A stretch of DNA of 28,740 nucleotides from a virus: IMG/VR virus record IMGVR_UViG_3300025146_000052, positions 1-28,740 of that record; one strand, written 5' to 3'. Shown piece by piece: positions 2-26,952 of this stretch. The notes beneath the pieces were generated by a model. It was not told the origin of the DNA. It did no database searches and saw nothing but the letters and a program-made list of their open reading frames with translations. How positions within the stretch are numbered: position 1 is the first letter of the stretch; the number at the start of each line of letters is the position of its first letter. The position numbers and the translations under genes are program-made.

Positions 2-130
2 TGCAAGCGAGCAGTGCTGACGGACCCGGATCGCCACTCGGAGGCGACGTGGGATCGCCGCGACAGGTCGACGCCAGCGGCACGACGAGTCGCAGCCTAC
101 TGGCGCAGCGTAGAGGAAAGGAAGGTGTAG
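2..130 (+). CDS. C-terminal end of an unknown protein (partial)
   Basis: An open frame enters from the left edge and ends at a TAG at 128-130, giving 42 residues that end in AAYWRSVEERKV. The stretch is rich in Arg, Asp and Ala and looks like a real, helical protein tail rather than a shadow. It ends two bases before the ATG of the next gene, as expected of operon neighbours. The N-terminus is off the window, so no family can be named. The other two plus frames here read as low-complexity Gly/Ser sequence. Confidence 0.5.
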   Translation, partial: CKRAVLTDPDRHSEATWDRRDRSTPAARRVAAYWRSVEERKV

Positions 131-4391: not shown

Positions 4392-4529
4392 TCACGTTCC
4401 CTCCGCTTTACTGAGCCACGCGCCGCACTTCGTGCAACGCGGACGAACGACGATGCGATAGGCGCCGTCCTTGCCCCTGAGCCAGTACCAGCGGCCCTCG
4501 TGCCGGCAGGGAAACAGGCGGCGCAGCAT
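4392..4529 (-). CDS. Zinc-binding microprotein (45 aa)
   Basis: This gene is too short for most gene callers. The ATG at 4529 follows GGAG seven bases upstream and the ORF ends in a TGA next to the TTG of the following gene. The product has C8, H10 and a C32-x2-C35 pair (FPCRHEG and RCTKCGAW), a compact zinc-ribbon-like arrangement. It is otherwise basic and aromatic (RWYWLRGK). Similar small Cys-pair proteins occur elsewhere in this operon. Function is unknown. Confidence 0.55.
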   Translation of the reverse strand: MLRRLFPCRHEGRWYWLRGKDGAYRIVVRPRCTKCGAWLSKAEGT

Positions 4530-4541
4530 GGGCAGTCTCCA

Positions 4542-5699
4542 TCAGATCACCTGCGCCAACAACCGCCGCCGGTCTTCTGCGGCAGGCAGCGCGATATAGT
4601 CCACCCCCATCGCCTCGGCATGGATGGCAGTGTTGCGCCAGGCTACAGCATTTGCGCCACGGGTAGCCCGCGTCCCAGGTTCCCAACTGTTCAGCCCGGC
4701 CTGTGACCAGGGGCTTCCATCAGGAGCCCGCCAGAACACGGCGCGCTGAGGAGTATAGTCATCCACAGGGCCGTAGTTGGTCTGTACTTCCTCTTTGTTG
4801 GTTGTCCCGCCGTCGGTGGACATGCCGTAGGGACTGAGGGTTTTCGCAGCAATAGTTGTCCTGGCCCAATCGAAGAGCACCACGACTTCGGGGTTTGCCA
4901 TCGTGATATTCGTGGTCGTGAAGGTCTGGCGGTCTGTAGTGTTCGCATCAGTACGCGAGTCCAGGAATGTTGTGTCGCCGTCGGGCGGGTCTTCGTCTAC
5001 AGAGTCGTGACGCGGGGCAGTAGGCGGTGCCCCTGCCTCGTCTGCATAATATTCGTTGTACGATGTGCCGTTGCCGGAGACGACAAGTTCCTGCCCGTTC
5101 AGCGTCGAGGCGTCGATACGTTCGTCAGTGTCGCTGAAAACGGCCAGCACTTCGCGGACAGAGAAGCTCCCGTTAGTGGGATCGGTATGCTCTCTGGACA
5201 GGATCACGGTATTAGGAGTTGCACCTACGGTAAAGCTGGAGGAATCGATCTCTAGCGTACTGCCGATCCAGACTCGCCCACGGGTAGGTGAAGCGATTTG
5301 GCGGCTGACACTGATATTGTAGGCCGTGCCAAAGGAAAGCAGGGTTGTGCCGGTGACAATCGCTCCAGACTCCACCTCAATGACATAGTTGGAACCCGAC
5401 TTCTTGGCAAAGATTTCCAATCCAGCATAGTGGAACATCTTGCGCCTCGTGCCATCCGCCCAGCTCGCATGGTCGGTAACGGTCAGGCTGTTGACTCCCA
5501 GGAGCGAATAGCTCATCCCTGCCGACGTAGGACGGTTGGTCCAGATCGCGCCGGCGTAGATCGCATCTACACCGAAATCGAATGAGCAGGCACCCACACT
5601 GAGCGTTGGAGTACCATAGATTTCACCAGTGAACCAACCGTAATAGGGCAGATGCGAGCTTAGCCAGGCCAACGAGGCATATGCCTTACGTGTCGCCAC
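4542..5699 (-). CDS. Tail-tip/appendage structural protein (385 aa), unknown family
   Basis: The GTG at 5699 is chosen because AGGAG lies seven bases upstream; it starts inside the end of the previous gene. The frame remains open upstream only as that gene's shadow. The product is rich in Thr, Ser, Gly and Asn and in short beta-strand patterns (SLTVTDHASW, GRVWIGSTLEIDSSSFTVG, TVILSREHTD). Its middle (YVIEVESGAIVTGTTLLSFG) looks like a LamG/concanavalin-type beta-sandwich. A linker with PPDGDTTF is followed by a C-terminal domain containing VVVLFDWART. This composition is typical of phage receptor-binding or decoration proteins after the fibre genes. GC is lower than in the core genes, a sign of exchange. 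Confidence 0.5.
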   Translation of the reverse strand: MATRKAYASLAWLSSHLPYYGWFTGEIYGTPTLSVGACSFDFGVDAIYAGAIWTNRPTSAGMSYSLLGVNSLTVTDHASWADGTRRKMFHYAGLEIFAKKSGSNYVIEVESGAIVTGTTLLSFGTAYNISVSRQIASPTRGRVWIGSTLEIDSSSFTVGATPNTVILSREHTDPTNGSFSVREVLAVFSDTDERIDASTLNGQELVVSGNGTSYNEYYADEAGAPPTAPRHDSVDEDPPDGDTTFLDSRTDANTTDRQTFTTTNITMANPEVVVLFDWARTTIAAKTLSPYGMSTDGGTTNKEEVQTNYGPVDDYTPQRAVFWRAPDGSPWSQAGLNSWEPGTRATRGANAVAWRNTAIHAEAMGVDYIALPAAEDRRRLLAQVI

Positions 5700-6198
5700 G
5701 TAGAAACTCCTGGACGTTCTCAATCGGAATCTGCGGGCTGTATGCGTCCTGATAGAGAGGCAGGATGACGGCAGCGTCAGCGCGTACCAGGTCGGGGAAC
5801 GGCCGGGCCTCAGCCGCCAGATCGTCGCGGGCGTCCGCAAGCCGCGCCATCCAGATGTAGCGCCCACTCGTCCTGACCCGTCGTGGCCCTGTCTGGCGGA
5901 ACCGGGGGCGCATCGCCAGCACCAGTGCCTCCGGGATCGTCGCCCAGACGGGGAGCGCCGCCGTGGCTGGGAAGCGCAGCGCCATCAGCCGCAGTGCTTC
6001 GGCGAGCATCGGCACCATCGTCGCAGCGATGAACGCAGGCCCGCCAGGCTCGGCAATAGGGAGCGGCATGAGGTCGGCCACGTGGGTCATCAGGCCAGCC
6101 CCCATCGGGTATGGGTAGCCCGTAGGCACCTCGTAGTGCGCGAGGCGGCAGACAGCCGGTATGCCGGTGTCGCCTATGAAAACCTGCGCGAGTGCCAT
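5686..6198 (-). CDS. Hypothetical tail-region protein (170 aa)
   Basis: The ATG at 6198 lies three bases after the fibre gene stop. The product begins MALAQVFIGDTGIPAVCRLA and has a hydrophobic helical middle (FIAATMVPMLAEALRLMALR). An Arg/Asp-rich C-terminal half follows. It has no signal peptide and no known motif. It sits between the long fibre and a beta-rich appendage gene, so a connector or chaperone for these is possible. I do not recognise a family. Confidence 0.5.
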   Translation of the reverse strand: MALAQVFIGDTGIPAVCRLAHYEVPTGYPYPMGAGLMTHVADLMPLPIAEPGGPAFIAATMVPMLAEALRLMALRFPATAALPVWATIPEALVLAMRPRFRQTGPRRVRTSGRYIWMARLADARDDLAAEARPFPDLVRADAAVILPLYQDAYSPQIPIENVQEFLRGDT

Positions 6199-6201
6199 CC
6201 G

Positions 6202-8337
6202 TTAGTACGCCACTGCCGCTACGACATCCTGATCCCCGTAGACGTATGCCGACCCGCCGATGTTTTCAGCGTTACCCGCCGTCTGCCAGGCCTCCAGCGA
6301 GTCGCCGTCCGCCAGCGTTGTCTCCGTGAAGGCGTCAACGGCGGCATCGCGGCTCCCAGAGTTCACGGTGATGCTGGAGCCGGTGATGGCCGTGCCGTTC
6401 TTTCGCAGTTCGAAGGTCGCGTTGGCGGCCAGGTTGCTCTCGAAGCGGATATACCAGTTGTTGATTCGGACAGCTTCATTTGTCCAAGGACTCTTGTACA
6501 CCCAGTCGTCGTCCAACGTAGCGTTGTTGGTCGCGGCAGGCAGGGCTTTCTTGAGGACGAGACGCAACGGCCCCCAGGGCACCTCGCCGATCTTGCCGGT
6601 GTGCGCAGCGTCCGTGTGATCAGGGTGTGCGGTAGCGCTCCCTTCGTGCGTCACAAGCTCTGTGCTGAGCGTGTAGCCCGTATGCGGGTCGGCAGCTCCG
6701 GTGTGGGCGCTATCGGCTGCCGCGTAATCGGTTGCCAGCTCATCGATAGCGGCCTGAACGGTGGTAGCGGCGACGCTGCCCGCTGGGACGTTACTGATCG
6801 CGCTCGCGTCGTGGGCGTCGACGGCATCCCCGAGGTGATCGCCGACCGGATCGTCCGTGAGGTCGGCGTAGGCGAGCACCTCCTGGACCCAGCCAGCCGC
6901 CAGCTTGCCGCCCGCGCCCGCCTTCGGGATTGCATTGGCTCCCGGCGTTGCCGTCGCTACTTCGTCGGCGCCACCGTGGGTGTGGCGCGAGGCATGGCCA
7001 CTCACGTCCACGCCATCCACGGTCTTGCCCGCCGCCATGACGATGTTCTGCACCAATGTCAGATCTTGGTTCTGCTCGATGGTGAACGCAAGCTGCGAGA
7101 GCGCGCTGCCGTTCGGGACGGTGAAGAACTCCAGCCTGCTACCACGTGCCGTGGCAGTCCACGCCTCCGTCGTAATGGCGTCTATGTAAGGGCCACGCTT
7201 GAAACCCGACTGATAGCCATACCAAGCGAACTCGCCGATTATATCCTCGGCAAGTACATCGCTTGGGGCGGCGATGGTGCCTCGCGCACGGCCAATATGG
7301 AGGCCTGCGTTAGCAGCCGCGCCATAACCACGAGCGCGCACAATCGGGCCGCCGTCTTTTTCAACGGTGAGTATCCCCGAAACGTATGAAGCGAGGTGCG
7401 TGGCGAAGTCTGCCCACTTCGGGTCGAGCCCGTCAAAGTGGAAGAGCGCGCCCGCGAGCGACGGGATGGCTAGCCCAGCCCACTTCGGCGTCGCGTTGCC
7501 AACGATGATGAGGCCGCGCGATACGGCTGCCGCGAGGCTGTCGGCGTGATCCACGGAGAGAATGTTGTGGGCCTGGGCATGGTGCGGCGCGCTGTCGCCC
7601 ACGGCCGTGTGCTCGGCTGGCGTCTGGTACTCCGCGTGCAGATCGCCGCTGGCGATGGCCCCGTGTGCGTGAGCGTGATCGCTGCGGGCTGGCGTCGTTG
7701 CGGTCCCATCCGCCTCGCTGGTGCCGACATCGACGGGATAACCAACTGCAGGTGCTGGAAATGGGTGTTGGTGGTCCGCGTGGGACGCGCTCGCCGAGAC
7801 GCCATCGCTGGCGGCGTCCCCGATATCGATCTGTCCCGCAACTGGCCCCAGCCCCGGCGGGCTCGGGCTGCTGGCTGTCTGCTTCGCCGTCGACTGGCGC
7901 CACGTGCCGCCGCCCTCGCTCGTGAAGCGGAGGACGTCGCCCGCGACGGTGACGATGTTGGTCGCGTTGGCCAGGACGAGCGATGCGCCGTGCGTGATCG
8001 TCAGCGCGCCATCGAACTCGAGGATGAGCTCGACACCGGCAGGCCGCGACGCGATGGCCGTGATCGTCATCGTCCCCGTGACGTGGAAGTAGTGCCCGGC
8101 CACGCCGACGGCGAGCGTCGCCGCCGATGGCAGGTCCGCGCCCTTCGTCCAGAGATCCCCGCCCTGCGTCGTGCCGTCGTGCGTGTGCGTCTGCAGGGGC
8201 CCGACGACACCGCCGCCGCCGGCGTCCTGGCGCAGCCTGCCGCTGCTGAAGGCGCGTTCGATCAGCGGCCCGTACTTCTTCATCCATTCCAGGATGTAGC
8301 CGATGGTGCTGGGGACTTCGCCGCCGGGCCATCTCAT
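6202..8337 (-). CDS. Tail fibre protein with His-rich (HxH) repeats
   Basis: The 711-residue product starts in an ATGA overlap with the hub/propeller gene. The N-terminus (about residues 1-45) has an amphipathic helix (GYILEWMKKYGPLIERAF) that may attach to the tail. The rest is Ala/Thr/Gly/Asp rich and carries repeated His clusters such as THTHDG, HADHQH, DHAHAHG, RHTHGG, DPHTGY and HPDHTDAAH. In T4-type fibre tips, HxH motifs coordinate metal ions along a trimer axis. Phage fibres of other groups use the same signature. The C-terminal 90 residues (NATFELRKNGTAITGSS and on) form a beta-rich tip-like domain. The protein most likely forms a trimeric fibre used in host recognition. Confidence 0.7.
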   Translation of the reverse strand: MRWPGGEVPSTIGYILEWMKKYGPLIERAFSSGRLRQDAGGGGVVGPLQTHTHDGTTQGGDLWTKGADLPSAATLAVGVAGHYFHVTGTMTITAIASRPAGVELILEFDGALTITHGASLVLANATNIVTVAGDVLRFTSEGGGTWRQSTAKQTASSPSPPGLGPVAGQIDIGDAASDGVSASASHADHQHPFPAPAVGYPVDVGTSEADGTATTPARSDHAHAHGAIASGDLHAEYQTPAEHTAVGDSAPHHAQAHNILSVDHADSLAAAVSRGLIIVGNATPKWAGLAIPSLAGALFHFDGLDPKWADFATHLASYVSGILTVEKDGGPIVRARGYGAAANAGLHIGRARGTIAAPSDVLAEDIIGEFAWYGYQSGFKRGPYIDAITTEAWTATARGSRLEFFTVPNGSALSQLAFTIEQNQDLTLVQNIVMAAGKTVDGVDVSGHASRHTHGGADEVATATPGANAIPKAGAGGKLAAGWVQEVLAYADLTDDPVGDHLGDAVDAHDASAISNVPAGSVAATTVQAAIDELATDYAAADSAHTGAADPHTGYTLSTELVTHEGSATAHPDHTDAAHTGKIGEVPWGPLRLVLKKALPAATNNATLDDDWVYKSPWTNEAVRINNWYIRFESNLAANATFELRKNGTAITGSSITVNSGSRDAAVDAFTETTLADGDSLEAWQTAGNAENIGGSAYVYGDQDVVAAVAY

Positions 8338-11300
8338 GACGGGATCACCGCGATGCCGTGGGTCGTTTGCGGAACCACACCGAAGTCATAGCTCGTGTGA
8401 CCCGAGAGTGGTAGGAGCGCATCGCTCACGTCCTGCCAGCCGAGACCGACACTCTTTACCACCTGGCTGATGTTGTTCGCGTTGTTCACGCCAGCGCCGA
8501 AGAGATAGAGCGCGCCCTCGGTGGGATTGAAGTCCAGTCCGCCGAAGTAGTTGTCCGTCGTCGCTGGCTGTGGCGGCTTATTGCCGAGTGCGTCGCTGAC
8601 AGTCTGTGTCCACGTTTGTCCCTGATCGGTGCTCTCGTAGATTTGAATGTCGCAAGGAACAACGTCCCGATTTTCCCACATGATGAAGAGCCTGCCGCCG
8701 ACGGGGTCGCCGACCGGCCCGTAGCCGAAGTCAACGCCCGCGCCTTGCTTCGCCTTCGTTAGTCGCGGCACCCAGGAGGCTCCGTTGTCGTCGCTCGTCC
8801 AGACGTTGAAGTCCCCGTTGCTTTCCTGCCATCCGATCTGGACGATCCGGTTGCTCGCCAGCATCATCCGATCGAACTTCTTGAAGGCGCCGCCGTTGAC
8901 GAAGAGATTGTTCACGACATTCTTCGTCCAGTTGGCGCCGCGGTCCGTCGTGAACCACGTCACGCAGTTCTTCGATGTGCCGCCGCTTTTGCCCATGATG
9001 GCGATGCGGTTCGGGTTCGTCGGATGCGGGACGACGTGCATGATGCGCTGCTGGTTCACGGTATCCGTGTCGTCTTTGCTCTCCGTCCAGGTGTCGCCGC
9101 TGTCATCCGAATACCAGATCTCCATGTGGCTGCGCGGCGTGGTCCCGCCCACCTCACACGTCACGCCCCAGAGCCGGCCATCTGCGGCTCGACGGATGTC
9201 CTGCCAGGCACGCGTCAGACCGCCCGTGGTCGGTGCCCCATAGAGATCGTCCCAGGCCGCCCCGCCGTCTTTGGTGCGAACGGCGACAGCGTCGTCCTGG
9301 TTGTCCACGCCATCCAGCGGATACCAGAAGGCGAACCAGAGATCGGTTGTAATTGCGCGTATGAAGAAATCGTTCTTGGTGTCGAGGTTCGTTGGGAAGA
9401 CGTGACTCTCGAAATTGCCCACGCCCTCGCGCCATGCGATGAACCGCTCCGTTGGCGAGCTGAGGAGGCCCCCGATGATCACCTTCGCCGCCGTGCTCAT
9501 CTGCGCCACCGGCCCGATCGCTACATCCTTCCCCTGCGCGCCCACCACCGGCCACGCCGTCATGCCCGGCAGCACGGCGGCGACCGTCACCAGGTCATCG
9601 AAGCTCTTGACGATGGCGCCGTTACCCGCCGCGTCCTCGATCGCGAGCAGGTGGCATTCGACGGTCGTCAGCCCCTCAGCCTCCTCACGCATCCACAGCC
9701 CTTCATTCGGCGTGAAGCCAACGTCCAGCACGTTCGCCTGGAGGGTGCAGACCGGCACGCCGGTCGTGCCGTCGATGTGCCATACGTCGCGGTTGTTGAA
9801 GAGGGCGTGGAAGCGGCCTGGCCCTGTGTTCCCAGGCAGCACGACGCGCCCCGGCGTCGTCAGCCCCGCCGTGAGGCCCGTCGCGCGCTTCCAGTTGACC
9901 GGCTCGAAGGGCGAATTCGTCAGGTAGATCGGGCGAACGCCGGAGTCGGACGCAGTGTAGTTCTCCAGGATGATGATGAGCCCGCCGCCATCGCCACGGT
10001 CGACGGCATCGACGATGGCGAGGTTCGTGCTGCCGCTGCCGAGGTCGGTCTGCAGCTCGCCGCCGAAGACGGAGGCCAGGCCATGCACGCTGGTATCGAA
10101 CCACCCGATGAACGGCCGCCCGTTGCCGACGACGCCGGTGCCGCCGAAAACCCAGGTCCCGCCGGCCCCCGGCAGGCCCAGCTTCTTGCCGATGATGGTC
10201 GAGAGCGAAAGCGATGTGCGGAAGTCGGCGATGAGCACGAAACTCGCGCCGTAGTCGGTCGAGACGTACAGATTGGCCTGCACGTCCAGCACCCAGACCT
10301 TCGACGGGTCGCGCCAGTCCCACTGCACATCGGCGATGGCAATACTGTTCGCCGCCTTCACCGAGGTGGGCGCCGTCACGCAGCCGTCGGTGGTGCGGTA
10401 GATCTGGCCGTTCAGCCGGCCGAACACGGCGTAGCCGGTGTGGACGCCGTCGGGCGGCGCAGCGGCGACCGTCGTAATGTCCGTGCCCGTCTGGAAGTTC
10501 CAGTTCTCGCCCCCGTCCATCGAGGCCGCGAAGCGCGTGCCCAGCGCCGCGAAGAGCGCCACGACGATCGCGTCCGTCCCTTCCGGCGTGACGTTGATCT
10601 CCTGTATCACCGTCGCCGTCAGCCCCGCTTCGTTCATCACGACCAGCGTCACCGTCAGCACGTCGCCCGACATGGCGGTCGGGTTGATCCGCACGGTAAA
10701 CTTCTCGGCTGTCTGAGCATCGATGTCGGGCGAGTCGGCTGCGTCCTGATCGCCCGACCAATCGAAGGTCAGCACCTCATTGGCATTGTCCGGCTGGTAG
10801 CTGCCCGAGGCATCGAGCGTGACGAACGTGTAGCGCTGGGCGCCGAGAGGCTGGTTCTCCGCCGTGAAGGTGAACTGCGCGATCGGGTTGACGTTGATCG
10901 TGCCGCCGAACTGCGGGCCGCCGCGCAGGTCACAGACCGTGGTATCCGAAGCCGCGTTGTGCGTGATGCCCCAGATTAGCCAGTTCCCCGACACGCCCCA
11001 CTCCGGCGCATCGATGTTGAGCGTCATCCCGATCTCCAGCTCCATGTCCATCGGGATGGTGACGCGGAACGATTGCGGTATCCGGCCGTGCTCACCGGCG
11101 ATGCGGATCGCCGCCGCCAGCGCCTTCGCGGTGTCCCAGATCAGCGGGATGCTGAACGTATCAGGGATCTGTTTGCCGGCGGCCAGCGGCGGCTGCGCCA
11201 GCGAGGTGTCGGAGAGCGTGACCGTCGCGCTGATGTCCGTGCCGTCGGCCAGCCGGGCGCCCAGGACGGTGATCTGCGTGCGATACCAGCCGGGGTCTTC

Positions 11301-11969: not shown

Positions 11970-11989
11970 CTATCTCAGCGGCCCAACAG

Positions 11990-14340: not shown

Positions 14341-14351
14341 GTGTTAGTCCA

Positions 14352-15064
14352 TCACCAGCGCTGGCCGTCGGACATCGCTTCCAGTATCTTCAACTGCCGC
14401 TCCAGCTCGAGCTCCTGTATCCAGCCGTTCACAAGCCCGAGCGCCTGCGAGACCGTGTGGGGCATCAGCCTCCACTCCGCGATCGTTGGCTTGACGCCGG
14501 CTGACACCATCTGCTGGGCCTCTACGATGGCTGCCCACTTGCGGCGTAGTCGCCCCGGTGGATGGCGGCCATATCGCTCTCCGCGATACCATCCCCGGAG
14601 CTCGGCGCTTCCCCCTCCGTGATGACGCTCAGCTCAACGATCTGCCGCGCCGCCCAGCGCCGCGTGTGGCGGTCCAGCTCGCTCTTCGTCTCATCGTCGC
14701 AGGGGATATCGTCGTAGTGAACCACACCCTTGCCCCGCCAGGAGACGAGCCCGTAGCGGATCAGCGTACCGACGTGGAGTCCGGTGAGCGGGTCGGCCGG
14801 CTGCGCCGCCGCCAGGCGCTCGGCCTCTTTCACGAGGTCGGACTTCTCGGCCTCTCCGTTTTCTTTTCCTTGCGGCGTCCCGCCAAAGCCCGCGACGGCC
14901 TGCAGCGCATCCAGCGTCTCCCCACCGTAGCGCAGCGCGTACTCCTTCACTGCCGCCGTCTCGGCCTCCTCCAGCTCGTCGTCCGAAAGACACCGGAACG
15001 ACATGTAGCAGCCTCCCTGGTGTGGGATGGCCCGCTCTTCGGGTGGCATGTGCTTGACCAGCAT
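14352..15064 (-). CDS. Tail assembly chaperone pair with -1 frameshift (gpG and gpGT-like)
   Basis: The ATG at 15064 has AGGAGGT nine bases upstream; the frame extends beyond it but the earlier part lacks a ribosome site. The zero-frame product (14522-15064, 180 aa) starts MLVKHMPPEER. It has an acidic helical middle (DDELEEAETAAVKEY) and ends before the stop at 14522. The -1 frame is open across the overlap and continues to a TGA at 14352 with a strongly protein-like helical sequence (KWAAIVEAQQMVSAGVKPTI and ELELERQLKILEAM). A slip at the G5 run (14611-14615) would give a 237-residue fusion. Lambda gpG/gpGT and most siphoviruses use this arrangement just before the tape measure gene to coat the tape measure protein during tail assembly. 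Confidence 0.75.
14611..14615 (-). other. Predicted -1 slippery run in the chaperone gene
   Basis: On the minus strand the zero-frame codons are GAG GGG GAA (residues 150-152 of the chaperone), giving a run of five G. The P-site Gly tRNA on GGG can slip back one base and still pair perfectly, and the next -1 codon is GGA. It is not a perfect X-XXY-YYZ heptamer. An alternative weaker slip is CGG GGC at 14552-14557. The -1 frame has no stop between these sites and the end of the T-like extension, so either could serve. Confidence 0.5.
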
Positions 15065-15093
15065 CGTTCGCGTACCTCCTGAGAAACTAAGAA

Positions 15094-15148
15094 AGCGTGC
15101 CGGACAGGATGCAAGACCGCTCTCGCGGTTCACAACCTCCGGCACGCT
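15094..15148 (-). promoter_or_regulatory. Nested stem-loop with GNRA-type loop in the chaperone leader
   Basis: AGCGTGCCGGA (15094-15104) pairs perfectly over 11 bp with TCCGGCACGCT (15138-15148). Inside it, ACCGC and GCGGT (15116-15129) form a second 5-bp stem capped, on the transcribed minus strand, by the tetraloop GAGA, a GNRA type. A T-rich run (TTTCTTAGTTTCT) and then the chaperone ribosome site follow. GGCACGCTCA occurs twice in tandem at 15141 and 15152. It may act as a partial terminator or attenuator between the major tail genes and the chaperone, or as a protein-binding leader. Confidence 0.6.
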
Positions 15149-15211
15149 CAAGGCACGCTCACAAGGGAGGTGGCGCGCGGCACGCAGCCCGCGCCGTATT
15201 CGGTTGTCGCT

Positions 15212-15388
15212 CTACGCTACCACCCGGCGCGGCGGGCTGTCAACCAAACTGGTGCGCAGACGCTCCCCATCCGAGATTACCCACACCCGCTTGCTGCAGC
15301 CCCGGCACTTCAGGCGCACCACGCCCGTGAAGAGGCCATCACAAAGGATCTCGCCGCACTCGCAGAAGGCCACGTGGAACGAACCCAA
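15212..15388 (-). CDS. Com-like zinc-ribbon microprotein (58 aa)
   Basis: This ORF is missed because it starts with TTG (15388), nine bases after GAGGAG at the end of the preceding gene. The product reads MGSFHVAFCECGEILCDG then VVRLKCRGCSKRVWVIS. Cysteines at 9, 11, 16, 28 and 31 form a zinc ribbon like that of the Mu Com family, where the protein binds mRNA to control translation. An in-frame GTG six codons in is an alternative start. The structured leader of the chaperone gene lies directly downstream. A regulatory link is only an inference. Confidence 0.6.
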   Translation of the reverse strand: MGSFHVAFCECGEILCDGLFTGVVRLKCRGCSKRVWVISDGERLRTSLVDSPPRRVVA

Positions 15389-15391
15389 AGC

Positions 15392-15727
15392 TCACGGCTC
15401 CTCGTAGCCCTCATGCGAGACGCGCCGGTAGTACCAGACGCCGCCCAGCGTTTTATCGAGCGCCTCAGCCGCCTCCTGCGGATCGAACGGCTTGCAGGAC
15501 CAGACGTTCGCCTCCGCCGCGCGCCCATGACCGTGGATGCCGATGTGGGATTCGGCGATCATCTGGATGGCATTGAACTCCTCTTCATCGATCGAGACGG
15601 TCTCAGCGCCAAAGGGCGTCATCTCCGTGGCCGCCACCAGCGCCCGGAGGGCGCTGCGTAGCCGTTCCTCCTGCGGCTGTGCCGGCAGGTGCGCGGCGAA
15701 GCGGTACTGAAACGGCCTTGGTGCCAT
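15392..15727 (-). CDS. Hypothetical tail-region protein (111 aa)
   Basis: The ATG at 15727 immediately follows the TAG of the major tail gene. The product, MAPRPFQYRFAAHLPAQPQE to EEP, has an acidic middle (TVSIDEEEFNAIQMIAE) and an aromatic C-terminus (GGVWYYRRVSHEGYE). It lacks membrane segments. Its place between the major tail protein and the chaperone is often filled by small tail accessory genes. No family is recognised. Confidence 0.6.
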   Translation of the reverse strand: MAPRPFQYRFAAHLPAQPQEERLRSALRALVAATEMTPFGAETVSIDEEEFNAIQMIAESHIGIHGHGRAAEANVWSCKPFDPQEAAEALDKTLGGVWYYRRVSHEGYEEP

Positions 15728-16729: not shown

Positions 16730-16732
16730 GGC

Positions 16733-16969: not shown

Positions 16970-16983
16970 GGCATCAACTCCTC

Positions 16984-17442: not shown

Positions 17443-17464
17443 CGCTCTCTCCGGCGAGCCTCCG

Positions 17465-18718: not shown

Positions 18719-18723
18719 CCACG

Positions 18724-19035: not shown

Positions 19036-19059
19036 GATGAACTCCTCCGGGCGCCGGCT

Positions 19060-19620: not shown

Positions 19621-19645
19621 TGCCTTCTCCTCCTTCAGCCGCGTC

Positions 19646-20104
19646 CTACGCCATCGGTACGATGACGTAGTAGGTGGTCACCTTCAGCGTGTTCAGGTTG
19701 GTGGCGTCTCCGGTGAACTCCGCGCCATCGTTGTCCAGCACGATTGCGGTGTTCGCCTCCGGTATCAAGTCGGCTACCGCCGGTAGTTCCCTTGCTGCGA
19801 TGTCGGCAGCAGCATCGATCAGGCCGTCGGCCTGCGTCGTGATCAGCGCCGTCTGCGTGGTCTTATACGCCAGCACCAGGTCGCCATCGGCCGCCGCATC
19901 GTCATAGGCGGCGTTGCGGTCGAGCGAGTAGACGACCATCGTTGGCACGAGCGCCAGGCCCACGCCGGGCGCCGGCACCAGGTCGATGTTCGTAGCCGCC
20001 AGCGCCTTCACCTCCTGCGATGTGAGCCGCACGACCGTGAACAGCTCCGGCGTCGGTACGCCGATCGCGAGCGGTGCAACTGCCGGCTTTAGGATCGTGG
20101 CCAT
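19646..20104 (-). CDS. Head-region structural protein (152 aa), possible decoration
   Basis: The product has VVRLTSQEVKALAATNIDLV and PAPGVGLALVPTMVVYSLDR, then a tail ending in LNTLKVTTYYVIVPMA. I know of small phage virion proteins with this L-T-x-x-E-x-x-A then PAPG then short strands pattern, but cannot name the family with confidence. It follows the major capsid gene with a short gap, and its ATG is preceded by AGGAGGC. A capsid-surface or accessory role is the most likely. Confidence 0.55.
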   Translation of the reverse strand: MATILKPAVAPLAIGVPTPELFTVVRLTSQEVKALAATNIDLVPAPGVGLALVPTMVVYSLDRNAAYDDAAADGDLVLAYKTTQTALITTQADGLIDAAADIAARELPAVADLIPEANTAIVLDNDGAEFTGDATNLNTLKVTTYYVIVPMA

Positions 20105-20132
20105 TGGGTTGCCTCCTTACGATCGTCCAGGC

Positions 20133-21428
20133 TTAGATCCCGGTGATCTGCGTGAACGCGGACGGCCGGTAGTGCACCACCGCGACCCGCAGGCCCGCGC
20201 GGATCGTCTGCCGGCCGTCCAGGAAGTCGTCGTTCACGAACCCGGTCAGCACCTCCAGGCCCTGGCGCACGTGCAGGCCGGAGAACCGCGCATAGTCGCC
20301 CGTGATCCCCGTGCCCTCGGTGACTGCGGTCGTCTCGATCACCGGCAGGCCCCAGATGCGCAGCGGCCCCGATTCCGACGGCGATCCCCAGATGTAGATG
20401 CCATCGGTCGTCTTGAGTAACCGGATCGGCTCCCAGTCGTTCGGGTGGATGATCACCACGTTCGGCTGCGATCGGCCAGTCACCCGCGCCGCCCTGATGC
20501 CCTTGTAGATGGCATCCGGCCGGCTGTCGGCGCCGAGCGCCTGCGTGTTGATGCCCGAGACATTGAGCGTGCCGAGTAGGTTCGGCGCGATGCCGTCGCC
20601 AACGAGGATCTGCGAGTCGAGCCGCTGGCGCACCATGAAGCCCAGCCGCCCGTCCAGGTATGCCCGTACGCCCACGACGTCGGCCAGCTGTTCGTCCGAG
20701 ACAGGGATGCTCGTGCCGACCGAGCGCACCGTCTGCGAGCGCTCCGTGAACGCCAGCGCCGACTCGGCGTAGGCGGCGGACTCAGCGCGCTCGGCCCCGG
20801 CGTTCGTGAAGGTGGTCTCCTCCATGTAGACGATGGCCGCCTGCGTGGTGGGGAAGACCGGCAGCACGTCAGTCACCTCGATCTCGCGCTGCTCATCGAG
20901 GACGATCCGGCCCGTCCGCAACGACTCCGGCGCCCAGCCGGCCGTCGTGAGAAACTCTGCGTTAATCGGGCGCGGCAGGAGCTGTGAGACGTGGGCGGGC
21001 ATGTCGGCTCGGGCGTTCTGGTGCGCCTTGGCCGCCGCGTAGAGGTCCGATTCCACGAACAGCTCGCCTAGGGACTTGTGCCGCTGCGGCTGGTTGCCGC
21101 CGCCAGGCGGCGCCCAGTCCTTCGGGTCCGCACCCGCCGGCTGCCGGCGCCGCTCGTCGTTCGAGTGCTTGATCGCGTCCAGCCCGTCGAAGTGCTGCTG
21201 GCGCTCGCCCAGCCAGTTCAGCTCCTCGTTGCGAGTGTTGATGTGCTGCGCGAGCTCGACGCCATTCTTGACCTCGACGCTCGTCACCTTTGACGGGTCA
21301 AGGTCCGCGCCGGCTTCCTCGAAGATGTTGTGCAACACCTCCGAGCGTTCGTCGAGCGCGATCCGGAGGTTCTCGCGACTCAGCGCCTCCACGTCTTCCT
21401 TGCGGTCGATGGTGATCTTGAGTGGCAT
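20133..21428 (-). CDS. Major capsid protein, HK97 fold
   Basis: The 431-residue product has an N-terminal helical scaffold-like domain (MPLKITIDRKEDVEALSREN to a Pro/Gly linker near 105). The HK97-fold core follows: VLPVFPTTQAAIVYMEETTF, SVGTSIPVSDEQLADV, LDGRLGFMVRQRLDSQIL, and VVIIHPNDWEPIRLLK (P-domain helix and strand). The C-terminus has GDYARFSGLHVRQGLEVL. The delta domain is probably removed by the ClpP-type protease encoded directly upstream, as in HK97. Start: ATG at 21428 with a GGGAGGG site. Confidence 0.85.
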   Translation of the reverse strand: MPLKITIDRKEDVEALSRENLRIALDERSEVLHNIFEEAGADLDPSKVTSVEVKNGVELAQHINTRNEELNWLGERQQHFDGLDAIKHSNDERRRQPAGADPKDWAPPGGGNQPQRHKSLGELFVESDLYAAAKAHQNARADMPAHVSQLLPRPINAEFLTTAGWAPESLRTGRIVLDEQREIEVTDVLPVFPTTQAAIVYMEETTFTNAGAERAESAAYAESALAFTERSQTVRSVGTSIPVSDEQLADVVGVRAYLDGRLGFMVRQRLDSQILVGDGIAPNLLGTLNVSGINTQALGADSRPDAIYKGIRAARVTGRSQPNVVIIHPNDWEPIRLLKTTDGIYIWGSPSESGPLRIWGLPVIETTAVTEGTGITGDYARFSGLHVRQGLEVLTGFVNDDFLDGRQTIRAGLRVAVVHYRPSAFTQITGI

Positions 21429-21441
21429 CTTTTGCCCTCCC

Positions 21442-22233
21442 TTACACTCCCACGCCGATGCGGCGTGACTGATCGCGCTGATAGCCGAGCACGGCTCGGA
21501 CCAGCTCCTCCGGCCGGTCTGCCGCCGGCCCCGGCGTGGGCGTCCCCTCGCCCCGGTCCTTGTTGCCCCCTACTAGGTGGGGTGGGCTGTTCTTGAAGAT
21601 CGCCAGAATGCCCGGGTCGTAGCGGTTCTCCGCCGGCGTCTCCTGGGCGGCAATCTCATCCGCGAGCCCGGCCGCAACCGCCTCTTCGTCCGAGTACCAG
21701 GTCTCCTCACGCATCCGCTCGCGCCACTCGTCGACTTCGCCACCCGCCTTTTCCTGGAACATCTTGGCGATGTCGTCGCCGAAGTGGTCGAGCATCTCCG
21801 CCATCTTGCGCATGTCCTCGGCGTTGCCGACCATGATGTCCAGCGGTTCGTGAATCATCATCGTCGCGTGCCGCGCCATGACGACCTTCTCGGCTGCGAG
21901 CCCAACCCACGACGCAGCCGACGCCGCGAGACCATCGATGTGCGTCTCGATGGCTGCCGGATGCTCGACGAGAGCCGTGCGGATCGCGACGGCGTCCGAG
22001 ATGGCGCCGCCTGGGCTGTTGATGCGCAGGAGGATGCGGGTCGCGTTGATCGCGCGCAGGTCGCGCACGAAGTCGGCGGCGGTCACGCCGCCGAACCAGG
22101 AGTCTCCGATCACGTCGTAGATGAAGACTTCGGCCTCGCCGTCCGCGAGGTTGCGCACGCTGTACCAGGAGCGCTGCGGGGCCGCGCCATTGCGGGCGCT
22201 GGCGAGAAGTCCGAGGTATCCGTTTGGCTTCAA
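21442..22233 (-). CDS. ClpP-type head maturation protease
   Basis: The 263-residue product has the phage ClpP/S14-S49 layout. EVFIYDVIGDSWFGGV is the first strand, RILLRINSPGGAISDAVAIR the oxyanion region, and IDGLAASAASWV holds the probable nucleophile Ser105. MMIHEPLD follows with the probable His128, and SDEEAVAAGLADEI comes later. It cleaves the capsid protein scaffold domain during head maturation. The start is a TTG at 22233; upstream is a GC-rich hairpin ending in AGGGG about eleven bases away, so initiation may be weak. An internal GTG (codon 26) has no ribosome site. The C-terminus is a charged, Pro/Gly-rich tail. It lies between the portal block and the capsid gene as expected. Confidence 0.8.
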   Translation of the reverse strand: MKPNGYLGLLASARNGAAPQRSWYSVRNLADGEAEVFIYDVIGDSWFGGVTAADFVRDLRAINATRILLRINSPGGAISDAVAIRTALVEHPAAIETHIDGLAASAASWVGLAAEKVVMARHATMMIHEPLDIMVGNAEDMRKMAEMLDHFGDDIAKMFQEKAGGEVDEWRERMREETWYSDEEAVAAGLADEIAAQETPAENRYDPGILAIFKNSPPHLVGGNKDRGEGTPTPGPAADRPEELVRAVLGYQRDQSRRIGVGV

Positions 22234-22241
22234 AAGAGAAA

Positions 22242-22263
22242 CGCCCCTGCAGCAGTAGGGGCG
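22242..22263 (-). promoter_or_regulatory. GC-rich hairpin before the protease start
   Basis: CGCCCCT (22242-22248) and AGGGGCG (22257-22263) form a perfect 7-bp stem with an 8-base loop. On the transcribed strand a T-rich run (TTTCTCTTTT) follows, as in an intrinsic terminator. The TTG start of the protease lies inside that T-run, and the only G-rich site upstream is within the stem. It could be a weak terminator that lowers downstream transcription, or a translational gate on the protease. Confidence 0.5.
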
Positions 22264-22292
22264 CTTGATGCTGCGGAGCGCTCGCTAGATGG

Positions 22293-22511
22293 CTATTCGA
22301 TTACCCGTTCCTTCGAAGCGTAGGGGCTCGGCGGCAGTTTGTCAAGCGGTATCCGGTTGATGGCCTTACATTTCTCGCATTTCCGCCTGACCGCAACGCC
22401 CGGAGGGATGCGCCGCTCCGCCTCCACCTCGATGTCGAAGATCCTGTGGTCGCAGCGCCAGCAGCGAATGACGATCGGAGCCGCGCTCTCGGCCAGATCG
22501 TTCCCCTTCAA
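22293..22511 (-). CDS. Com-like zinc-ribbon protein (72 aa)
   Basis: The product has C17-x2-C20 (IRCWRCDHRIFDIEVE) and C45-x2-C48 (RRKCEKCKAINRI), the four-cysteine zinc ribbon of the Mu Com family. Com proteins bind mRNA and activate translation of an adjacent modification gene in Mu; other phages carry relatives of unknown role. It starts in a 4-base overlap with the upstream gene. It ends just before the hairpin in front of the protease, which may be a target. This link is inference. Confidence 0.7.
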   Translation of the reverse strand: MKGNDLAESAAPIVIRCWRCDHRIFDIEVEAERRIPPGVAVRRKCEKCKAINRIPLDKLPPSPYASKERVIE

Positions 22512-22759
22512 ACCTCGGGATGCCTGCGCAGCTGTCGGTTCGGCAGGGCGATGCCGTTTCGCGGCTGCGGCTGCACGATCATCACAGGCTTGGGCATATC
22601 GGGCGGCACCAGCTTGACGAACTTGCAGTCCGAGAGCGGATACCAGACGAGCTCGCCAGTATCGGCAGCGGTAAGCAGCTCATCCTTCGTGACGGCCAGC
22701 ACCCAGACAGCGTTGCCTTCCTTCGTCACTCCCTCGATTGTCACAGCGAACGGGATCAT
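22508..22759 (-). CDS. Hypothetical protein (83 aa) after portal
   Basis: The product begins MIPFAVTIEGVTKEGNAVWVL and is a strand-rich small domain (ELVWYPLSDCKFVKLVPPD, KPVMIVQPQPRN). It starts in an ATGA overlap with the portal stop and ends overlapping the Com-like start, so the three are coupled. It has no membrane segment and no recognised family. Confidence 0.55.
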   Translation of the reverse strand: MIPFAVTIEGVTKEGNAVWVLAVTKDELLTAADTGELVWYPLSDCKFVKLVPPDMPKPVMIVQPQPRNGIALPNRQLRRHPEV

Positions 22760-24150
22760 GACGAGCCTCCTTCGTCGTCCTCCGACTGCACTGTCACCGG
22801 CGCCAGGCCCGTGTGCCGCAGCTTGGCCGGGTCGAAGCCCGTCTCCGCCGCCGCCGCGTCCGGCTCCACGCCAGCGCGGATGAGCGCGCCATAGGCCTCG
22901 GCTTGCTTGGCGATCAACGACAGCCGCCGCTCCTCGTCCGTGGCCAGCGCGAGCTGCGAGAAGACGGTCTCATCCTCGCCGAAGGGCGGCTCGTCCTCCT
23001 GCGCCAGCACGCGCTCGATTGAGGTGGCGCCCATCATCAGGCGGTTCTTCTGGATCTCCGCCCGGTCCTTCGGCGACGCCGACAGAAGCGAGTCGAAGAT
23101 GAACTTCACCTGCAGATCCGGCTCGACCCACTTCGTGATGTACTTCTGGTAGGCAGCCTGCCGGCGCTGCACGATCGGCCGCAGCGTGAACCGCTCCAGC
23201 CCGCGCGAGAACTCTGCTATCCCAGTGCCCCAGGTCGACGGCTTCTCGACCATGCCCGCCACGGTCGGCGGCACGCGCCACATGGCCAGTAGCACCTTGA
23301 AGACGAGATCGTTCTGTGCGACGAACTCGGCATCCGCCAGGCTCATCGATAGCCGCTCCAGCTTCAGATCCTTGCCGCCCAGCACGGCCACCCGCCCGGC
23401 GTTGCCAGCTCCGCCGTGCAAACGTTCCAGCCGCTGGGACAGTTCCACAGCCTCCGGTTCCGGGATGGTCTCGCCGGCGGTGAGCACAGCCGACGGGTTC
23501 AGGCCGCGCCCCATGAGCCGCGCGGCCGTCTCCTGGTATGCCAGCGATAGGCCCGCCAGCTCCGCTGCCATGCGCACGGGCGAGACGGGTTCCAGTTGGC
23601 CGGGCAGGGTGTAGAGCGGACAGTATGCGAACTCCGGGCGTTCGCCGGGACGATTCACGAGCTCGCCCTGACCGAGCGAGGTCAGCTTGAGGGCCACGCC
23701 CTCCGTGCGTTCCAGCTTCACGCCCGCCGGGTTGAGCGGCCAGCGCACATCGAGCCCACCGGCGCGGGTCCAGCCGAGCATCGTATAGCTGGCGCCCCAG
23801 AGCGCCATGCTCATCGTCTCTGTCGCCTCGATCCCGAAGCGCGTCTGGTCGGGGTTGGGCTCGTCGCTCCAAAGCGCGCGCAGCCGTTCCGGCTCCTGCG
23901 GCATCCGCGTCTGGTCGCCCTTCAGCACGAGGCGCATCACCAGCGACGCCACTTCATCGGCGAGCACGCTCGTTGCGATCCAGATCGCCGCCACGCGCAG
24001 CGCCGATGCCTCTTCGACGCGCTGGCCCGAGAGCGTGGCGAGGCCGCCTACATGGGCGATCTGGCCTGTCACCCCGGAGAACGCGGGGAGCGGGTTGCCC
24101 TGCTTCACGATCGAGAAGGCGTTGCGGGCTGCTTGTCTGAGTGCCGGCAT
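22756..24150 (-). CDS. Portal protein, HK97 type
   Basis: The 464-residue product, from the ATG at 24150 (a GTG at 24153 is adjacent but closer to the GGAGG site), has the HK97 portal family order. AIWIATSVLADEVASLVMRL lies near the N-terminus, GASYTMLGWTRAGGLDVRWP in the wing region, GGKDLKLERLSMSLADAEFV and LAMWRVPPTVAGMVEKPSTW in the stem. FSRGLERFTLRPIVQRRQAA and a Glu-rich C-terminus with PFGEDETVF follow. The dodecameric portal is the DNA entry channel and docks terminase and connector. Its TGATG overlap with the small membrane gene is tight. Confidence 0.85.
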   Translation of the reverse strand: MPALRQAARNAFSIVKQGNPLPAFSGVTGQIAHVGGLATLSGQRVEEASALRVAAIWIATSVLADEVASLVMRLVLKGDQTRMPQEPERLRALWSDEPNPDQTRFGIEATETMSMALWGASYTMLGWTRAGGLDVRWPLNPAGVKLERTEGVALKLTSLGQGELVNRPGERPEFAYCPLYTLPGQLEPVSPVRMAAELAGLSLAYQETAARLMGRGLNPSAVLTAGETIPEPEAVELSQRLERLHGGAGNAGRVAVLGGKDLKLERLSMSLADAEFVAQNDLVFKVLLAMWRVPPTVAGMVEKPSTWGTGIAEFSRGLERFTLRPIVQRRQAAYQKYITKWVEPDLQVKFIFDSLLSASPKDRAEIQKNRLMMGATSIERVLAQEDEPPFGEDETVFSQLALATDEERRLSLIAKQAEAYGALIRAGVEPDAAAAETGFDPAKLRHTGLAPVTVQSEDDEGGSS

Positions 24151-24299
24151 CACTCACCTCCGATGTTCAGGTTGGCTACCAGTATCAAGTATACACCTGC
24201 CACCGCGATGCCGAGAGGCAGCCACCACAACGACGCGGCGGCGGCCAGCGCCGCGACGCCTGCGATCTCCGCCAGCCAACGTAGGCGGGCGGGGGTCAC
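24150..24299 (-). CDS. Small two-segment membrane protein (49 aa)
   Basis: This ORF is short and starts with GTG at 24299; GGAGG lies ten bases upstream. It ends in TGA overlapping the portal ATG (TGATG). The product MTPARLRWLAEIAGVAALAA continues as a hydrophobic helix, then WWLPLGIAVAGVYLILVANL. It probably forms a membrane hairpin. Small hydrophobic genes between terminase and portal are uncommon and have no agreed function. The coupling to portal is clear, but the role is unknown. Confidence 0.55.
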   Translation of the reverse strand: MTPARLRWLAEIAGVAALAAAASLWWLPLGIAVAGVYLILVANLNIGGE

Positions 24300-24370
24300 G
24301 CCTAACTCACCTCCGTCAGACAACCGGGGCCGTGGAGTGCGCTATGGGCGGCGAGCGGCGCGAACACGTT

Positions 24371-25091
24371 TCACGATGTCTCCAGATCAAAATTAGCGGC
24401 GTTAGCAATCGCGTGCCATGTTCTCTGCGATGATCCATTGAGATTAGACGAGGGGATTCGCAATGGCCGTATGCCGACTGCGAAGTCGAGATCGCGATCA
24501 AAATCCTTCAACCGTTGTTCTCGATCCTGATGGTGAAGTCCATCGCATTCAATCCCTATCGGATCACGGCCATCTATCAGGATGAGGAAATCCAACCTTC
24601 GCCATTTGCCGGGGGCATCGAACCCAGAACTGGGGAATATGGATTCCATCCTTGGTTGGTTCCGCATCAATCGCATTATTTAGACTCATCTCGATAGGCG
24701 TCATCGGCCACCGACAGGACCGATAGACATCGACGAAAAGACTCCAGTACTCGTCTAGGTCCTCGTCACAGCGGCGAAATAATTCCCGCTTTAGTTCTTC
24801 TATGGCGATGGAGTCGCGGGATATAATGGCGTCTTGCATTCTGGGGAGAAGCGGAGCCTGGTCAGGATAAAGAGATGGCCTCCTAAGCAGCAATTCGCCA
24901 GCTTCTACGGGCAGTCCTCGCAATGCGCCGTTTTTACGAGGCGCTGAAATCGGTTCATCTCCCAGGCAATCAACCACTTGCCCCCAAGTTTCGGGTGCCA
25001 ATTGACCTAGCGACGCCTCTTTTCGCCAGGCCTCCCAGATTGCAAGGCACTGCCATTGCCAAACATCGTATTGCAAGAGGCGCGGATTCAT
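24371..25091 (-). pseudogene. Vsr/DUF559-like nuclease with a one-base frameshift
   Basis: The first frame (24564-25091) starts in an ATGA overlap with the large terminase stop and gives 175 residues, starting MNPRLLQYDVWQWQCLAIWE. Near its end (DGIHIPQFWVR) the coding sense passes to another frame, which continues GKWRRLDFLILIDGRDPIGI and ECDGLHHQDREQRLKDFDRD to a TGA at 24371. RLDF...IECDGLHH plus Q-D-R-x-R is the catalytic core of PD-(D/E)XK nucleases of the DUF559/Vsr type. Removing one base from the G5 run (plus strand 24611-24615) joins the two into about 240 residues. GC is lower than in neighbours, consistent with an inserted gene beside terminase. Confidence 0.6.
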
Positions 25092-26761
25092 CCTGGCTTC
25101 TCTTGGTCGGGAATGTACAACGAGATGCCCGTCCGTTGCGGCTTCGCCCCCAGCGCGACCGCATCCTGACGCGCCTGCCAGGACAGCGCCCCCGCGACGG
25201 CGGCGTCAATTTTGAGCGGGGAGTCCGAGCGTTCCTTCTGGATCACGTACATCAACTCGTCGTCATCATCCCGGAGGCTGAGCATGTGCTTCACGGCATT
25301 GGCGATCGCCGCGGCGAAGCGCGGGTCGCCGTCGTGTGAAAGGTCTCCCGCTTCAATCGCCGTGCGGTACTGCGCGATCGCGTGCGCCATCTTCCGGTAC
25401 TGCGTCGTCGACCAGGAGATGACGCGCTCGCCCCCGAACTGCCCCGCCCACTTCGAGAGGTGCGTGCCCCATTTGTACGGGTCGGCGTACATCCGCCAGA
25501 CCTGCCAACGCCCGAACGCTTCTTCAACGATCTGGTCTACCTCGGTCGTCGGGATCCAGAGCTCGCCGGTCGCAGCGTCCGGCAGGGGCTCCCAATAGCC
25601 CGTCACCCACTGGTAGCCTGATGCGACCTCCGTCCCGATGAGCGCGGTGTGGTCGCGGGAGAGCGAGCCATCGAAGCCGAGCGTGATCAGTGCGCCCGCC
25701 GGCACGGTGTAGCCGGCCTTGGTCAGCGCGGCGAACTTGTCGGCGTCGAACGGCTTGTCCTCCTCCGCGATGATCTGGTTGAGGTAGAAGCGCCGTGCCA
25801 TCGCCGCCGTCGTGCGGGGGTCCCGGATCTCCCCGAGCAGCCGCTCCGGCTTTACCCAGGCTGAGTCACCCCGCGCGGCGATGATCCCGCGCGTCACGGC
25901 AGCGTCATCTTCGAGGTCGGTCTCCGGCGCTTCCAGGGAGTCGTAGAGGATGCCCGCCGCGCTCACCGGCACAAGCCCCTGCGCGACTTTCCTCCAGGCT
26001 TCGTAGTCATGCTCGGCATCCGAGTTCTCGCCGGGCGCGTGCGCATTCGAGATCGCCAGCACACGCGAGGAGCCATCCCGTGACTTCGCCGCGTTCCGCG
26101 CGATCACCTTCGCCATCTCGTGCCCTTCGTTGGGCCCGAGCCAGTGCATCGTCTCGTTCTTGAGGATAAACGTCGCCCGCCCACCCTCCAATGCCCGCGG
26201 CGAGCTGGTGACTGCCTCGATGCGCTTGCGGCCGGATTCGGCGTAGATGATCTCCTTGCCGAGGTCGATGCTGAACTCCTCAATGGCGCGCGGGCTGAGC
26301 ATCCCCGGAAAGAGCGTCATGGTGTTGCGCGTCTGGTCACGCGAGACGGCTGCCGTCTGTACCCAGGCAGCGATGTGTGCCTCAGCGATGGGCAGGCCGC
26401 GTTCCCAGCGCGCGAAGCGACATGGCCCTAGGGCCTCGATGCAGCAGAGCGCCGCGCCGAGCGGGTCCTTCCCGTGACCCTTCATCCGCCGGAACATCCC
26501 GTAGCGCCATACGAACCGGCCCTCCGCGTCGATGGCGTACCACCACAGCACGAAGCGGGCTTGCTCGTCCGTGAACTTCCACGGCTGCCCGGCATCCGGG
26601 CCGTCCGGCTGCAAGAGGTAGTCCGCCGTCCAGCCGAGAATCTGCCAGCCCAGCGTGTGCTTCGGTAGCACGAACCCCGCGCGGTTGCGCTTCCAGGTGG
26701 GCCCAATGGTGATGGGCGCCGGCGTCCTCGTGCGACGACGGGGAGCGGTGGCGGTGGTCAT
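25088..26761 (-). CDS. Terminase large subunit
   Basis: The 557-residue product starts at the ATG at 26761, in an ATGA overlap with the preceding zinc-ribbon gene; the open frame further upstream is that gene's shadow. It carries a Walker A-like RRMKGHGKD (91-99), a Walker B-type TFILKNETMHW (Asn-Glu at 202-203, a variant seen in some phage terminases), and a coupling region. The RNase H-like nuclease has FDGSLSRDHTAL (Asp364 and Asp370). It is the ATP-driven motor that packages DNA into the portal and cuts at the ends of packaging. Confidence 0.85.
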   Translation of the reverse strand: MTTATAPRRRTRTPAPITIGPTWKRNRAGFVLPKHTLGWQILGWTADYLLQPDGPDAGQPWKFTDEQARFVLWWYAIDAEGRFVWRYGMFRRMKGHGKDPLGAALCCIEALGPCRFARWERGLPIAEAHIAAWVQTAAVSRDQTRNTMTLFPGMLSPRAIEEFSIDLGKEIIYAESGRKRIEAVTSSPRALEGGRATFILKNETMHWLGPNEGHEMAKVIARNAAKSRDGSSRVLAISNAHAPGENSDAEHDYEAWRKVAQGLVPVSAAGILYDSLEAPETDLEDDAAVTRGIIAARGDSAWVKPERLLGEIRDPRTTAAMARRFYLNQIIAEEDKPFDADKFAALTKAGYTVPAGALITLGFDGSLSRDHTALIGTEVASGYQWVTGYWEPLPDAATGELWIPTTEVDQIVEEAFGRWQVWRMYADPYKWGTHLSKWAGQFGGERVISWSTTQYRKMAHAIAQYRTAIEAGDLSHDGDPRFAAAIANAVKHMLSLRDDDDELMYVIQKERSDSPLKIDAAVAGALSWQARQDAVALGAKPQRTGISLYIPDQEKPG

Positions 26762-26952
26762 CGTTTCATAGGAAGTAACGAATATCGACCGTCCTCTACC
26801 ACCCAAGTGCGTATGCTTCGGTCGAACCATTGGCCCTTGATGACGATTTGAACACGGCAATTCGGACAGTAGCGGGCGCTGCGCCGATATACGAATGGGT
26901 GATCGCAGTCAGGGCACTCTAGAAAACCGCCAGCACCAGCGCCCGTCGTCAT
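26758..26952 (-). CDS. Zinc-ribbon microprotein (64 aa)
   Basis: C13-x2-C16 (LECPDCDHPFVY) and C29-x2-C32 (ARYCPNCRVQIV) make a textbook zinc ribbon, followed by an aromatic strand (WVVEDGRYSLL). It starts four bases inside the end of the small terminase and ends in an ATGA overlap with the large terminase. It is therefore part of the packaging block, and co-translation with terminase is likely. It may bind DNA or RNA; no direct family match can be claimed. Confidence 0.65.
   Translation of the reverse strand: MTTGAGAGGFLECPDCDHPFVYRRSARYCPNCRVQIVIKGQWFDRSIRTWVVEDGRYSLLPMKR

Follow-up and report, generated by a model that had tools for sequence, protein, structure and literature searches.

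In tailed phages, late genes are usually transcribed from one or a few promoters under the control of a single regulator. In the Q system, a sigma70-type promoter and an intrinsic terminator precede the late genes, and the regulator carries polymerase through (PMC6606751). Excerpts of two further reports describe polymerase passing a terminator just downstream of the target promoter with AlpA of Pseudomonas aeruginosa (PMC7969949) and terminators ahead of late genes with P7 of phage Xp10 (PMC6624301). The target of Com of phage Mu is a GAG hairpin close to a structure that inhibits translation, and the motif bound is CC(N)2-3GAG (PMC6483171). The DNA considered here, referred to as the window, is the whole 28,740-nucleotide (nt) stretch of IMG/VR virus record IMGVR_UViG_3300025146_000052, a 28.7-kb siphovirus contig of an uncultured bacterial virus. 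Two small genes in the window, termed R2 and R3, each belong to a predicted cassette of four parts: a Com-like zinc-ribbon gene closing the upstream late unit; a sigma70-type promoter embedded in the 3' end of that gene; a leader of 60-150 nt with an intrinsic-terminator-like hairpin and U-tract at its end; and the gene that opens the following late unit, namely the head protease for R2 and the gene at the tail-chaperone position for R3. The cassette, its conservation and the covariation of its hairpin are demonstrated below by sequence comparison.

The minus strand carries the late genes of the window, beginning with a methyltransferase gene and continuing with TerS, TerL, portal, ClpP-type head protease, major head protein, connectors, tube, tape measure, tail genes and lysis; genes that matched no family were named by position. 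R2 (22293-22511, minus strand) encodes a 72-amino acid (aa) Com-like zinc ribbon (CWRC...CEKC), starts with a TTG codon that overlaps the upstream stop codon and is the last gene ahead of the head protease. R3 (15212-15388, minus strand) encodes a 58-aa zinc ribbon (CEC...CRGC) and precedes the gene at the tail-chaperone position before the tape measure (14522-15064, minus strand; ATG at 15062-15064), for which no family was matched.

The hexamer TTGACA is present in only two copies on the late strand of the window, one at the 3' end of each of these genes. Within R2, the predicted -35 element (TTGACA, 22340-22345, minus strand) is separated by a 17-nt spacer from a -10 element (TACGCT, 22317-22322, minus strand), and the -35 element within R3 (TTGACA, 15238-15243, minus strand) is followed after 18 nt by TAGCGT (15214-15219, minus strand). 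The TTGACA-TAnnnT arrangement was likewise observed in the ribbon-bearing relatives, with -10 boxes that misfit TAnnnT in L165 and L179. Relative to the ribbon genes, TTGACA falls in each of the three reading frames (13 of 17 in the commonest frame, and across the stop codon in L179); it is therefore kept as DNA and not as protein. A conserved initial transcribed sequence, ACAACCGAATAC, has its best genome-wide match at 15196-15207 (minus strand), and a conserved AT-rich box, ACAACCGAATAG, lies in most cases 4-12 nt past the -10 element, at the presumed transcription start. This box is the best or joint best late-strand match in nearly every such genome and was found in R2 or R3 leaders of L003, L004, L006, L024, L082 and L134; in L006 it lies further downstream, and the match in L005 overlaps the -10 element and is probably due to chance. 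The initial annotation had placed Cys-pair open reading frames (ORFs) at the module borders and noted hairpins in the leaders behind two of them, and the promoter with its terminator-like leader had gone unseen. It is well supported by sequence that a predicted sigma70-type promoter at the 3' end of R2 and R3, together with a terminator-like leader, marks these borders.

In lambdoid morons, a small gene with a terminator is located between structural genes. The ribbons could similarly be self-expressed insertions of promoter, ribbon gene and terminator, which would account for a small gene and terminator that are present or absent between conserved genes. However, the predicted promoter does not precede the ribbon gene but lies within its 3' end, where it would serve the next unit; late-strand TTGACA is found only there; and each ribbon gene overlaps or adjoins the one upstream. 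A moron origin is thus very improbable.

A scan of the late strand of the window for terminator-like hairpins returned two, those of the R2 and R3 leaders, each GC-rich, followed by a U-tract and situated between the promoter and the next start codon. Both hairpins proposed in the initial annotation exist, 22242-22263 being the tip of the R2 hairpin (22239-22283, minus strand) and 15094-15148 matching that of R3 (15092-15150, minus strand). The R2 hairpin consists of A1 (GAGCGCTCC), which pairs with A* (GGGGCGTTT), and a nested stem I (GCAGC/GCTGC) carrying a second repeat copy, A2 (AAGCGCCCC), in its loop. In an alignment of seven genomes, this hairpin has 93.9% of its cells paired, compared with 36-55% when the alignment is slid, and six pairs are altered on both sides. 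An alternative hairpin, A2:A*, was rejected because it displays no covariation, and A1:A* with stem I is therefore the supported fold. The ClpP-type coding sequence (21442-22233, minus strand) begins right behind the U-tract with a TTG codon (22231-22233), which is the start codon in seven of seven aligned genomes. In the R3 leader, for which a fold z-score of -4.3 was obtained, GAGCGTGCC is repeated in tandem; its second copy pairs with TCCGGCACGC, and a U-tract follows. The tandem GAGCGTGCC-TT-GAGCGTGCC lies ahead of the terminator arm in the R3 leaders of the window and L006, and the first copy in the window is predicted to pair with the Shine-Dalgarno (SD) sequence of the next gene (15075-15080). 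The leaders carry the repeats CCTTGAG and GAGCGCCCC. No hairpin was found at the R3 site of L004, which also lacks R3, and 62 of 67 ribbon-less ClpP loci are without a hairpin. A search of the window against Rfam gave no match.

The recurrence of R2 and R3 was assessed in relatives of the window, namely L003 (95%), L004 (~80%), L005 (~65%), L006 (tail only), L020, L024 and L082 (portal 73% for both) and L134, a contig in a Dehalococcoidia metagenome-assembled genome. In a portal search of 400 Chloroflexota genomes the seed alone was close, and tblastn of R1-R4 (R1 and R4 are introduced below) against 50,697 phage records returned nothing meaningful. A Cys4 ribbon of the R2 type lies between portal and ClpP-type protease in seven genomes (the window, L003, L004, L005, L024, L082 and L134), and a Cys4 ribbon is also found immediately upstream of the ClpP-type protease in L165 and L179. 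An R3-type ribbon follows the tube gene in six genomes (the window, L134, L005, L006, L024 and L096) and is absent from L004; window R3 comes after an S-adenosylmethionine decarboxylase-like gene, and its L134 homologue (40%) was matched with an E value of 3e-12. The four cysteines are invariant in R2 set A5, and spacing varies in the R3 set (CxC, Cx4C). AlphaFold2 models of the ribbons have cores, mostly strands, with a predicted local distance difference test score of about 80-96; a fold search with both models gave zinc-ribbon-like matches (LysW, ZitP and RNA polymerase small subunits), none of them significant. Among 69 further ClpP-protease loci, a Com-like ribbon lies directly upstream in two (L165 and L179), which speaks against a general association of the ribbon with head proteases of the ClpP type and marks it as a trait of a group, not of the protease. 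No ribbon was found in Gordonia Powerball, or in L084, L085, L089, L090 and L092, where the next gene is, by eye, HK97-type-protease-like. Extra Cys-pair mini-ORFs are present beside the R2 site in L134 (11359-11592) and L020 (5774-6049), and the end of the latter coincides exactly with TTGACA.

To compare the ribbons with Com, a profile of seven proteins (Mu, Chuche, JD024, B3, Mcat1, UMP151 and Komp) was used, with ten ribbons from similar phages as controls. R2-type members matched this profile with probabilities of 66-88% (window R2, 78%) and the R3 family profile with 87%, whereas R1 (15%) and R4 (20%) were at the level of the controls (23% or less). The single R3 sequence reached 4%, such that the R3 match is one of the family profile only. 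Profile-profile comparison, as a membership test for PF10122 and phrog_6417, gave 87-96%. In 2 of 60 trials, a column-shuffled R2 profile attained a score of about 30 against Com, which weakens single scores; reliance was therefore placed on the contrast with the controls, on R3 and on L233. The last was located solely by the leader-repeat scan and carries, ahead of its portal gene and with TTGACA, a Com-like ribbon ORF that matches phrog_6417 with an E value of 7.7e-9 and PF10122 with 2.3e-4 (21.0 bits; cut-off, 22.9). Six of ten R2-type members matched phrog_6417, a "translational regulator", at E values up to 1 (best, 2.2e-6; window R2, 0.14). Neither R2 nor R3 of the window matched the PF10122 model, and a PF10122 search of the window's record found none, as was equally the case for the control genomes. 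With Pfam, PHROGs and NCBIfam, R1 and R2 gave weak generic zinc-ribbon matches and R3 and R4 almost none. By profile scores above the controls and by conserved position, R2 and R3 belong together, and R1 and R4 score as unrelated ribbons; the resemblance to Mu Com that the initial annotation had suggested applies, by profile comparison, to the former pair.

The resemblance to Com raises the alternative that the ribbons bind a GAG-containing leader hairpin and open a translational block of the next gene, the promoter being a separate matter. The TTG start of the protease lies behind a hairpin whose 3' arm is the sole SD-like stretch, and the first R3 repeat is able to pair with the SD sequence. 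Furthermore, the motif GCC(N)2-3GAGC (expected at 0.05-0.17 each) is present in five of six known Com leaders and three of five R3 leaders, and four R2 leaders each contain a pair of GAG(N)2CC motifs. These possible Com sites in R3 and R2 leaders lend the translational alternative some weight. By contrast, GCC(N)2-3GAGC was found in none of nine R2 leaders, the SD sequence is outside the hairpin in L096 and L030, and the element that the leaders share, a promoter with a U-tract hairpin, is unneeded for translational control. In addition, those known Com genes with annotated neighbours that were inspected are mostly ahead of DNA-modification genes, whereas the genes next to window-type ribbons include no DNA-modification gene and encode a protease, a major head protein, a portal or the chaperone-position protein. 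Given that promoter and terminator are common to the R2 and R3 leaders and SD masking is not common to all, transcriptional readthrough is favored, and Com-like action on translation is rather unlikely.

The initial annotation had also proposed that four related RNA-binding ribbons, with a possible fifth, form a single set of late-timing factors. Four minus-strand Cys-pair ORFs are indeed present, with the coordinates and Cys pairs claimed. R1 (26758-26952, minus strand) is a zinc ribbon in the TerS-TerL gap that overlaps each of these genes by 4 nt; R2 overlaps its upstream gene, and both are thus in an operon context. R4 (4392-4529, minus strand) is a mini-protein of the form CxH...CxxC and is a real gene, conserved in the contig of the closest relative, L003 (a homologue with 73% in L237, Cys/His kept). 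Neither R1 nor R4 is Com-like, and neither has a promoter or leader hairpin. R1 is, moreover, absent from L003, where a different 110-aa protein fills the TerS-TerL gap. The claimed fifth ribbon (571-906) is interrupted in frame by a TAG codon at 610-612, which leaves only 649-906 open; this part has a single CxxC, overlaps a larger ORF and matched no family in Pfam. That larger ORF (366-1088, plus strand) carries a C-terminal lysozyme/transglycosylase-like sequence, ESGGNPNAISPDGENIGLMQIN. A single set of four or five ribbons is accordingly extremely improbable. The view of ribbons as module-border genes preceding late blocks holds for R2 and R3, which are retained in close relatives at conserved sites. 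The initial annotation was half right and points to more than it proposed, namely two cassettes of Com-like ribbon, promoter and putative attenuator at the head and tail borders.

An unbiased scan covered both strands of ~190 loci, a hit being TTGACA-15..19-TAnnnT with a hairpin and U-tract no more than 230 nt downstream. Of its 27 hits, some of them redundant, 14 are behind a ribbon ORF that ends at the promoter (two each in the window, L005, L024 and L134, and one each in L003, L004, L006, L030, L082 and L096); the R2-type ORF of L134, with a CC pair missed by the motif filter, was counted by eye. With hairpins disregarded, a CYS4 ORF was observed at 14 of 57 promoter sites, compared with 2.9% of random positions (P ~7e-10) and 2 of 79 permuted hexamers; for the window alone, P is about 4e-4 for a ribbon at the promoter. 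These statistics pool partly related loci, and the P values overstate their independence. The downstream gene is mostly a protease, but a major head protein in L030 and a portal in L233, and the cassette is therefore modular. A match to the leader pattern in L232, with no ribbon and no nearby promoter, was dismissed as chance.

It might be argued that promoter, leader and terminator are the functional unit, yielding a prematurely ended small RNA, as in the case of lambda 6S, or a stabilizing 5' hairpin, and that the ribbon is a bystander. In L084, L085 and L090, promoter and hairpin are kept behind a small ORF that has no cysteine pairs, next to another type of protease; the ribbon is hence usual but not obligatory. 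Moreover, R2 is evolving rapidly: between the window and L003, the ratio of nonsynonymous to synonymous substitution rates is ~1.1 overall, compared with 0.12-0.21 for neighboring genes, and codons 1-54 contain eight nonsynonymous and two synonymous changes. Such an account does not, however, explain 14 promoter sites with a ribbon ORF exactly there, or Cys pairs kept at the R2 and R3 sites and, beside different downstream genes, in L030, L096 and L233. A bystander ribbon is therefore unlikely. The protein ahead of the promoter and leader in L084 (11363-11533) and L090 (4470-4643) is 56-57 aa in length, has at most one cysteine and gave no match in Pfam; it may be a functional substitute for the ribbon.

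The explanation favored here, to which a probability of roughly 0.5 is assigned, is that the R2 and R3 cassettes are attenuated late promoters, with the upstream ribbon as the regulator that relieves the leader block. RNA polymerase would initiate at the R2 and R3 promoters and mostly halt in the leader, and head and tail genes would stay low until a regulator permitted transcription through. That regulator would be the product of the ribbon gene immediately upstream, with the leader or the early elongation complex as its target; the Com-like ribbon is probably a local regulator. Several observations weigh against attenuated promoters relieved by a ribbon, in addition to the ribbon-less loci, the rapid change of R2 and the pooling of related loci already described. 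The z-score of the window R2 hairpin alone is just -1.7. In L020, a Cys-pair ORF and TTGACA are present and a hairpin with U-tract is missing. No homology to the antiterminators Q, AlpA or P7 was seen among the matches listed, and inspection of ACAACCGAATAG for a -10-like pause element, such as Q needs, revealed no xAxxxT hexamer. Because the ribbon is in each case the last gene of the unit before, expression could be handed on by the two cassettes, first from packaging to head and then from head to tail. A two-step relay, in which the last gene of each late unit would be a Com-related zinc-ribbon micro-antiterminator opening the attenuated promoter of the next, is a tentative possibility that, if true, would add a novel class of antitermination factors, very small in size and represented by one paralogue in each module.

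Further features were noted in the window and its relatives. The S-adenosylmethionine decarboxylase-like gene (15392-15727, minus strand; PF02675, 38.5 bits, cut-off 25; phrog_3125) is placed in the late operon between tube and R3, with homologues at other positions in L004 (16847-17122) and L236. Between TerL and portal, the window has an ORF (24564-25091, minus strand) that matched no PHROG, and L003 has a different one resembling a VSR-like endonuclease, which indicates that this spot exchanges inserts. L003 (5789-7004) also encodes a ParB-like protein with a CPECGHEF tail and then a look-alike of Mom/GNAT-type DNA modification enzymes; the window counterpart is a ParB-methyltransferase fusion.

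The head module and the tail module would each be served by a separate attenuated promoter with a Com-like micro-protein as its mark, and Com-type ribbons would gain a role outside DNA modification. The arrangement is a compact candidate for control of module-by-module timing and protein ratios, and the combination of ribbon, TTGACA-TAnnnT and leader hairpin provides a searchable late-promoter signature for uncultured phages. It appears to be a means of activating assembly genes one after another that had not been seen before.

Compared with the com-mom and com-dam systems (PF10122; phrog_6417), the window has in common a CCCC ribbon of 45-72 aa with a disordered tail, encoded directly upstream of its presumed target, and a GAG-containing leader. 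The systems differ in that the next gene here is that of a head protease, major head protein or portal or the one at the tail-chaperone position, and not a DNA-modification gene, the genes do not overlap and are separated by a promoter and terminator-like hairpin, and window R2 and R3 fall short of the Pfam model. AlpA and P7, in the excerpts cited, are single regulators, not one per module, and those texts make no mention of a zinc ribbon. The lambda Q-pR'-tR' arrangement is similar in its succession of regulator gene, constitutive-looking promoter, short leader with intrinsic terminator and late genes; unlike lambda, the window has two cassettes per genome, a ribbon of 45-72 aa, no Q homology and no proven pause or Q-binding element. 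The Q/AlpA-type layout of promoter, intrinsic terminator and target gene is encountered in the window at the level of sequence only. In its proposed working, the cassette is laid out like lambda Q-pR'-tR' and like the targets of AlpA, but with a much smaller, Com-related protein.

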